Assembly (NCBI GenBank): GCA_029555085.1
Contig: JAKPTO010000013.1
Location: 1-41,263 of the forward strand
Origin: a bacterium
GTDB taxonomy: Bacteria > Patescibacteriota > Patescibacteriia > UBA1558 > S5-K13
Reading direction: 5' to 3'
DNA length: 41,263 nt
This document shows, piece by piece, positions 458 through 31,086 of this stretch. Under the pieces are notes generated by a model. It ran no database searches and was not told where the DNA came from. It saw nothing but the letters and a program-made list of their open reading frames with translations. Made by a program: the position numbers and the translations under genes. Positions within the stretch are counted from its first letter, which is position 1, and each line of letters starts with the position of its first letter.

Positions 458-486
458 TTGACAAAAAAATTTAGATATGCTATACT
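458..486 (+). promoter_or_regulatory. Near-consensus sigma70-type promoter
   Basis: TTGACA (458-463), 17-nt spacer, TATACT (481-486). Confidence 0.8.
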
Positions 487-490
487 CCTA

Positions 491-710
491 GGTTAGCTTA
501 AAAAGCTAATTTCACAAATCCGTATATTTCTGCATCCACGACAAGCATGAAAATTCCTAAAAGATCTCTGCAGGCTGTGTCCTAGATATTCGCTCGCATA
601 GTTCTTAGAGAAATTTTCTTGGGTGCAGTAATATATGGATTTATTATTTGACTAAATACTTTATAAATGATATTGTTAATTCAAGCTAGTATATTATACT
701 AGTTTTTTTA
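491..710 (+). ncRNA. Structured non-coding RNA candidate (6S-RNA-like architecture, identity unproven)
   Basis: Own promoter; 5' hairpin ttagctt-aaa-aagctaa (493-509); long-range stem 516-537 / 621-642 with 19 WC pairs, 2 G-U and 1 mismatch; inner stem GAAAATT/AATTTTC (549-555/612-618); terminator ctagtat-att-atactag-TTTTTTT at the 3' end; no ORF. Confidence 0.7.
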
Positions 711-742: not shown

Positions 743-1936
743 ATGTTTCAAAATACAGACGAAATAAAACAAGCAATACAAGATATTTGTGAAGAAAAAA
801 ATATCTCAATTGATTCTGTTATAGACGGAATTGAAGCTGCTCTTGCTGCGGCATATAGGAAAGATTTTGGTAATAAGAATCAAAACATAAAGGTAAATTT
901 TGATATTGACACGGGAGAAATTGAAGCATTTGATATAAAAACTGTTGTAGAAGATCGAGATATAGAAAAAGAAGCAGAGGAATATCAAAAAATTAAGGAC
1001 TCATTAAAAGATGGCGAGGAAATGCCAGAGGGAATCGTAAGATTTAATCCTAAAACCGAAATATTGCTATCAGAAGCAAAAGAAATTGATAAAAAAATAA
1101 AAATAGGTGAAGAATTAAGAGTTGAGCTTGAAACTCCAAATGACTTTGGAAGAATAGCCGCTCAAACCGCAAAACAAGTTATAATTCAAAAAATTAGAGA
1201 AGCAGAAAGAGAGACAATTCTATCAGAATTCAAACAAAGAGAAGGAGAGGTCGTAAACACAACAGTTCAACGCAGAGAAGGTCCAAATGTGTTAGTTGAT
1301 TTAAATAGAACAATAGGAATAATTCCACCTGAAGAACAGGTAAGAAATGATAATTACATGCCTGGATCTAGATTAAAGGTTATAATTCTTCGCGTTGAAG
1401 AAACTGTAAAAGGACCAAGAGTAATAGTTTCTCGCGCTCATCCTGAAATAATAAATAAGGTATTTACATTGGAAGTGCCTGAAATATCAAACGGAATTGT
1501 AGAAATAAAGGCAATAGCCCGCGACCCAGGTTCTAGAACAAAAATCGCTGTTGCAAGCAAACAAGAAAACATCGACCCAGTTGGTTCTTGTGTTGGGCAA
1601 AAGGGATCAAGAGTACAAGCAATAATATCAGAACTTGGCGGAGAAAAAATAGACATAATAGAATGGAACAAAGATCCGGAGATATTTATAAAAAATTCTC
1701 TCTCTCCTGCAAAAATAATAAATATAGAAATAAATAAAGAAGAAAAAACATCTATTGTAAAAGTAGCAGAAGATCAACTGTCTTTAGCTATTGGACGCGA
1801 TGGACAAAATGTAAAACTTGCTACAAAACTAACTGGTTGGAAAATAGATGTTGAGGGAATAGAAAACATTGAAGAAAAAATAGGAGAAGAAGAAAAAATT
1901 CAAGAAGAAACAGAAGAAATTCAAGAAGAAGAATAA
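743..1936 (+). CDS. nusA: Transcription termination/antitermination factor NusA
   Basis: NusA N-terminal domain, S1 and KH regions (SCVGQKGSRVQAIISELGGEKIDIIEW; LAIGRDGQNVKLATKLTGWKIDV). Confidence 0.96.
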   Translation: MFQNTDEIKQAIQDICEEKNISIDSVIDGIEAALAAAYRKDFGNKNQNIKVNFDIDTGEIEAFDIKTVVEDRDIEKEAEEYQKIKDSLKDGEEMPEGIVRFNPKTEILLSEAKEIDKKIKIGEELRVELETPNDFGRIAAQTAKQVIIQKIREAERETILSEFKQREGEVVNTTVQRREGPNVLVDLNRTIGIIPPEEQVRNDNYMPGSRLKVIILRVEETVKGPRVIVSRAHPEIINKVFTLEVPEISNGIVEIKAIARDPGSRTKIAVASKQENIDPVGSCVGQKGSRVQAIISELGGEKIDIIEWNKDPEIFIKNSLSPAKIINIEINKEEKTSIVKVAEDQLSLAIGRDGQNVKLATKLTGWKIDVEGIENIEEKIGEEEKIQEETEEIQEEE

Positions 1937-30996: not shown

Positions 30997-31086
30997 GGAG
31001 AGTTGCCAGAGTGGTTGAATGGGACGCTCTCGAAAAGCGTTGTCTCGTTTACGGGACCGGGAGTTCGAATCTCTCACTCTCCGCCA
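30997..31086 (+). tRNA. tRNA-Ser(CGA), CCA encoded
   Basis: ggagagt...actctccgcca; anticodon loop ctcgaaa; long variable arm. Confidence 0.93.
31041..31085 (+). repeat. att-like direct repeat, copy 1 (variable arm to acceptor of tRNA-Ser)
   Basis: tgtctcgtttacgggaccgggagttcgaatctctcactctccgcc; 44/45 identical to 32792-32836. Confidence 0.9.

Follow-up and report, generated by a model that had tools for sequence, protein, structure and literature searches.

We identified a conserved RNA that is nearly universal in a class of the candidate phyla radiation (CPR), the one that GTDB calls ABY1, and that is previously unclassified and absent from Rfam. The case examined lies in a 41,263-nucleotide contig from a patescibacterial genome (JAKPTO010000013.1; this whole stretch is hereafter the window), for which a preliminary description made from the sequence alone had proposed an unannotated, structured non-coding RNA with its own promoter. 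That proposal is borne out. In the window, the RNA gene begins at 493 and ends at about 660, or else reaches the T-run at 709; we regard it as almost certainly real and conserved. The gene and its surroundings comprise the following features, all on the forward strand.

458..486 (+), promoter of the RNA, TTGACA-N17-TATACT: -35 hexamer at 458-463, 17-nt spacer, -10 hexamer at 481-486, with TG preceding the -10 (extended -10)
493..509 (+), perfect 7-bp 5' hairpin, found at the genus level only and outside the conserved family
514..644 (+), conserved core of the RNA
514..538 (+), 5' strand of the closing stem, pairing with 620-644; its conserved inner part, 530-537, is CTGCATCC
539..548 (+), asymmetric bulge of 10 nt, CGACAAGCAT, almost invariant in the class
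549..572 (+), 5' strand of the apical arm, with a lower helix at 549-555 and then 557-571 with internal loops
573..575 (+), 5' half of the apical motif, GGC
576..591 (+), variable apical loop, 3-35 nt across the family
592..594 (+), 3' half of the apical motif, GCU
595..618 (+), 3' strand of the apical arm, exactly 24 nt from GCU to the bulge
619 (+), single unpaired U opposite the bulge
620..644 (+), 3' strand of the closing stem
648..676 (+), second promoter, TTGACT-N17-TATTGT, probably for nusA, conserved in two relatives (G001 and G004)
686..709 (+), terminator-like hairpin CTAGTATATTATACTAG (686-702) followed by T7 (703-709), kept in three species
743..1936 (+), nusA (NusA_N, KH_5), the downstream neighbour in the window's lineage only and outside the RNA

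Most of what had been read from the letters of this locus proved exact. The promoter hexamers and their spacing, the perfect 5' hairpin, and the asymmetric bulge and inner stem are all present where they had been placed, and the long stem joining 516-537 to 621-642 contains precisely the 19 Watson-Crick pairs, two G-U pairs and one mismatch that had been counted. The region had also been described as lacking an open reading frame, and none of at least 40 amino acids overlaps 458-710. Its predicted fold has an energy of -63.7 kcal/mol (z = -6.2), and 0 of 200 shuffled sequences were as stable. By eye, the 5' hairpin has a weaker form in the sister species and was seen in none of the other family members; it is no part of the conserved RNA. 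Estimated from the positions of promoters and stems, the RNA is about 150-170 nt long at most loci and up to about 217 nt in the window.

The 3' end of the gene is more intricate. The terminator that had been proposed there stands insofar as the hairpin and T7 are present; a generic scan, which picks up the promoter at 458-486, did not flag them, missing the hairpin because it is A+T-rich. Within 648-709 of the window, the second promoter, conserved in the same two relatives, comes directly before the hairpin and T-run; the hairpin lies 3' of this promoter and may in the window's lineage also be nusA's. A nusA transcript initiated here would open, at about +1, with a hairpin resembling a terminator; this could represent a nusA attenuator or a form of autoregulation.

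A DNA search of relatives found the region to be 75-87% identical within the genus and family. Many genomes of the order, and a single one of the class, also contain two short stretches of it: the 3' stem strand and the CTGCATCCACGACAAGCA part. The first 13 sequences, aligned with MAFFT and folded with RNAalifold, gave a starting structure in which 26 of 42 pairs show a compensatory change. When the alignment was extended to 89 sequences (A5), 37 of the 42 base pairs had changes on both sides. Standard pairs filled 93.0% of cells in A5 versus 63.7% after shuffling, the covariation score was 0.767 versus 0.21 for shuffled and 0.13-0.16 for slid alignments, and 0 of 500 shuffles reached any of these measures; A5 was aligned with the model and so leans towards the structure, the structure itself coming from the 13-sequence MAFFT and RNAalifold analysis. 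The preliminary description had named a lack of stem conservation in relatives as one of two outcomes that would count against it, and homologues with compensatory changes have now been shown.

The conserved fold is a rod. Its closing helix comprises 24 pairs, 23 of which have changed on both sides among the 89 sequences. In the bulge that follows, CGACAAGCAU, 88 of the 89 have 10 nt, and 76 of 89 share the identical context CACGACAAGCATG. The strand opposite the bulge has one or two unpaired nucleotides (one in 89/89 under the aligned structure). Above the bulge, the lower apical helix is rich in conserved G-U pairs and wobble-rich in most relatives, with two short helices beyond it. At the apical GGC/GCU motif, 88 of the 89 sequences have the G-U pair 573:594. 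Exactly 24 nt separate GCU from the bulge in 73 of the 89 and 25 nt do so in another 13; the apical loop, by contrast, ranges from 3 to 35 nt. In the modelled fold, the bulge and apical motif resemble two points of one recognition surface, set apart by a fixed ruler.

To map its distribution, a covariance model, R1, was built from the alignment of 13 sequences. Of 193 sampled class genomes, 172 match R1, mostly with E values of 1e-10 to 1e-30 and usually once each; the genomes lacking a match may hold diverged copies, possibly missed because large genome scans use stricter filters. A pattern scan of named genomes identified Uhr-, Komeili-, Buchanan-, Magasanik-, Kerfeld- and Falkowbacteria as carriers. 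A second model built from 89 sequences, R2, matches 32 of 35 class members versus 4 of 348 genomes from the other classes of the phylum, these four weakly. All four out-of-class loci (L241, L242, L243 and L244, near 2001-2164) have a consensus-like promoter upstream, and three keep GGC..GCU, with a spacing that is similar by eye and a bulge of about 4-5 nt. These CPR loci are likely to be distant relatives of the RNA.

Promoters were scored as hexamer matches out of 12 plus small bonuses, and a score of at least 10 was found upstream of the core in 74% of 88 loci versus 4.6% of shuffles. The -35 element of the homologues is mostly TTGACA, and TG precedes the -10 in 60 of 67 (extended -10). A T-run of at least 5 marks the 3' end, or lies close to it, in 58 of 88 loci, a raw count taken without a control. 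The genes upstream are varied (ClpP in 14/63 loci, RuvB in 9/63, NusB in 5/63). The setting between tRNA-Leu and nusA that had been described is true of the window and is a local one, other neighbours being found in most relatives. The conserved convergent neighbour on the 3' side of the RNA in many loci, L062, L070 and L071 among them, is a VanW-domain protein of about 600-690 amino acids where complete.

A cis-acting leader of nusA, whether riboswitch or attenuator, would agree with what is seen in the window and two relatives, where nusA follows the RNA on the same strand, beyond a terminator-like hairpin. Across the family, however, 57 of 77 loci have a convergent gene downstream, and the gene there most often encodes a VanW-domain protein (35 of 59 loci, versus only 3 of 59 for NusA), and in the window the second promoter sits between the RNA and nusA. 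We consider such a leader very improbable, and a cis-regulatory leader was rejected for the family as a whole, there being no fixed same-strand position upstream of one gene family. Judged from its promoters and varied surroundings, the RNA is a stand-alone gene.

None of the 4227 Rfam models matches the RNA. The preliminary suggestions that the genome is a CPR one and that the RNA is either 6S-like or a new family were right. On the 6S side, there is no score with the 6S model, and the 3' strand of the bubble is short. The 6S model (RF00013) has no match in the window's own genome, and none at the RNA at any threshold tried, with E up to 10 and 5 in two scans. Across the class it gave one hit in 193 genomes, which was sub-threshold, not above chance, and on a contig other than that of the genome's R1 match. 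The missing 6S is weak evidence, because the same model detects only 5 of 14 control genomes and misses 9. The RNA does not score with the RNase P model RF00010, and the RNase P RNA of this genome sits elsewhere, on contig C48. In the open-licence literature covered, we found no report of the RNA, nor of a 6S RNA in Patescibacteria. A phage origin was rejected: viral contigs gave no pattern match and annotated phages no BLAST match.

The most serious rival was an extremely diverged signal recognition particle (SRP) RNA, because the class has none that is recognisable: RF00169 matches 0 of 193 class genomes and RF01854 0 of 54. Like bacterial SRP RNA, the RNA described here is single-copy, hairpin-shaped and of a housekeeping type. 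Unlike it, the RNA matches neither model and lacks the SRP domain IV motif (no CAGG/GNRA/AGCAG core), which is no more frequent in the genomes than in a reversed control. Furthermore, the RNA-binding M domain of Ffh (PF02978) was found in 0 of 58 class genomes versus 14 of 14 controls, and with that domain missing an SRP RNA is therefore not expected. ABY1 appears, from these searches, to be a class without an SRP pathway. On these grounds the SRP assignment was rejected, and we hold it to be exceedingly unlikely.

An invariant single-stranded element might alternatively act by base pairing, making this a trans-acting antisense RNA whose bulge pairs with targets such as helix 34 of 16S rRNA or mRNAs. 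The bulge motif is complementary to 16S rRNA (CATGGTTGTCGTC) at 11 of 13 positions in many ABY1 genomes, a level that about 1% of shuffled motifs also reach. The 16S site is generally conserved in bacteria. We examined the complementarity to helix 34 across 79 genomes; in 20 of them (8+1+11) the 16S site is changed and the RNA does not follow, and pairing of the bulge with helix 34 was rejected for this lack of co-variation. A bulge within a stable rod would also be an unusual seed, and an antisense role in general seems improbable to us.

We are left to consider what a trans-acting RNA of this form might do. The molecule we picture is a rod in which a long closing stem leads to a 10-nt asymmetric bulge and an apical arm carrying a second motif at fixed distance, and it would be a trans-acting, housekeeping-type RNA of the CPR class ABY1. 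It is probably transcribed at a high level, as an abundant RNA would fit the near-consensus promoters, and a single protein may bind it at both the bulge and the apical motif. The likeliest partner would be RNA polymerase, in which case the RNA would serve as 6S RNA does, or as Ms1 does in Actinobacteria. This is the simplest reading of a near-universal, strongly promoted rod with a central single-stranded element in a class without a recognisable 6S RNA. We put the possibility that the RNA is a functional counterpart of 6S or Ms1 that binds RNA polymerase only a little short of an even chance.

The comparison with 6S, an RNA of about 160-200 nt that binds sigma70-type holoenzyme and templates pRNA, cuts both ways. 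According to PMC8876501, 6S RNA folds into a rod that opens into a central bubble; it carries a -35-like element in its apical arm and a '-10'-like one in the 3' strand of that bubble. The ABY1 RNA resembles them in being a stand-alone RNA of about 150-220 nt with a strong promoter, a very wide distribution and usually one copy, and in its covariation-supported fold of closing stem, central single-stranded element and apical arm. As regards a -35-like element, what was seen in the apical arm is a conserved motif 24-25 nt from the bulge. In contrast to the two-sided bubble of 6S, with its -10-like 3' strand, it has a 10-nt bulge opposite 1-2 nt. Sequence conservation among 6S RNAs is poor, but this bulge is invariant. 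We did not file the RNA as 6S because the 3' central bubble is missing. A candidate -10 element picked out by eye in the 3' strand (AAUYUU) was rejected, because the start site would fall inside the conserved closing stem.

Ms1 provides a precedent: throughout a whole group, 6S can be replaced by a 6S-like RNA that has diverged (PMC9130861). The ABY1 RNA is likewise 6S-shaped and fills a whole group in which 6S was not found. The two differ in that Ms1, which binds the RNA polymerase core, is about 300 nt long and has extra terminal hairpins (PMC9130861); any relation in sequence was judged via Rfam only.

Alternatively, the RNA may serve as scaffold or cofactor to a different conserved protein, one that acts in translation, ribosome assembly, RNA decay or the envelope and recognises it through the bulge and the apical G-U motif. 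The invariant bulge and fixed spacing are consistent with such a ribonucleoprotein, as are the conserved non-Watson-Crick features (the G-U pair in 88/89 sequences and the G-U-rich lower helix) and the lack of a match among 4227 Rfam families. Against it, no partner protein emerged, and the neighbourhood holds no universal gene. We treat this tentatively, as a possibility well short of even. A broader formulation, to which we lend rather less than even credence, is that a new class of housekeeping RNA in bacteria, functionally unrelated to 6S, has its founding member here; it would partner a CPR protein through the invariant 10-nt bulge and the fixed-distance apical motif and may reach other classes of Patescibacteria with a shorter bulge.

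A structured RNA that about 90% of the sampled species in an entire class carry, usually as a single copy, is absent from Rfam: a basic gap in CPR annotation. If it is a counterpart of 6S, it would show how far a polymerase decoy can diverge, with one side of the bubble being dispensable; if not, it would be a new housekeeping ribonucleoprotein in bacteria with very small genomes. The covariance model from this analysis allows others to annotate the RNA, and the invariant bulge offers a direct handle for pull-down work.

Elsewhere in the window, ARAGORN places a tRNA-Ser (cga) at 30997-31086 that the Rfam tRNA model does not list at the gathering score. The motif also occurs at L138, on a contig titled Lysobacteraceae bacterium isolate OTbin.42, an assembly that is probably mislabelled or contaminated. 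In family f37, the RNA is duplicated in several genomes, the two diverged copies lying in tandem at a distance of about 200 nt (L079, 2501-2848; L106, 2501-2853).
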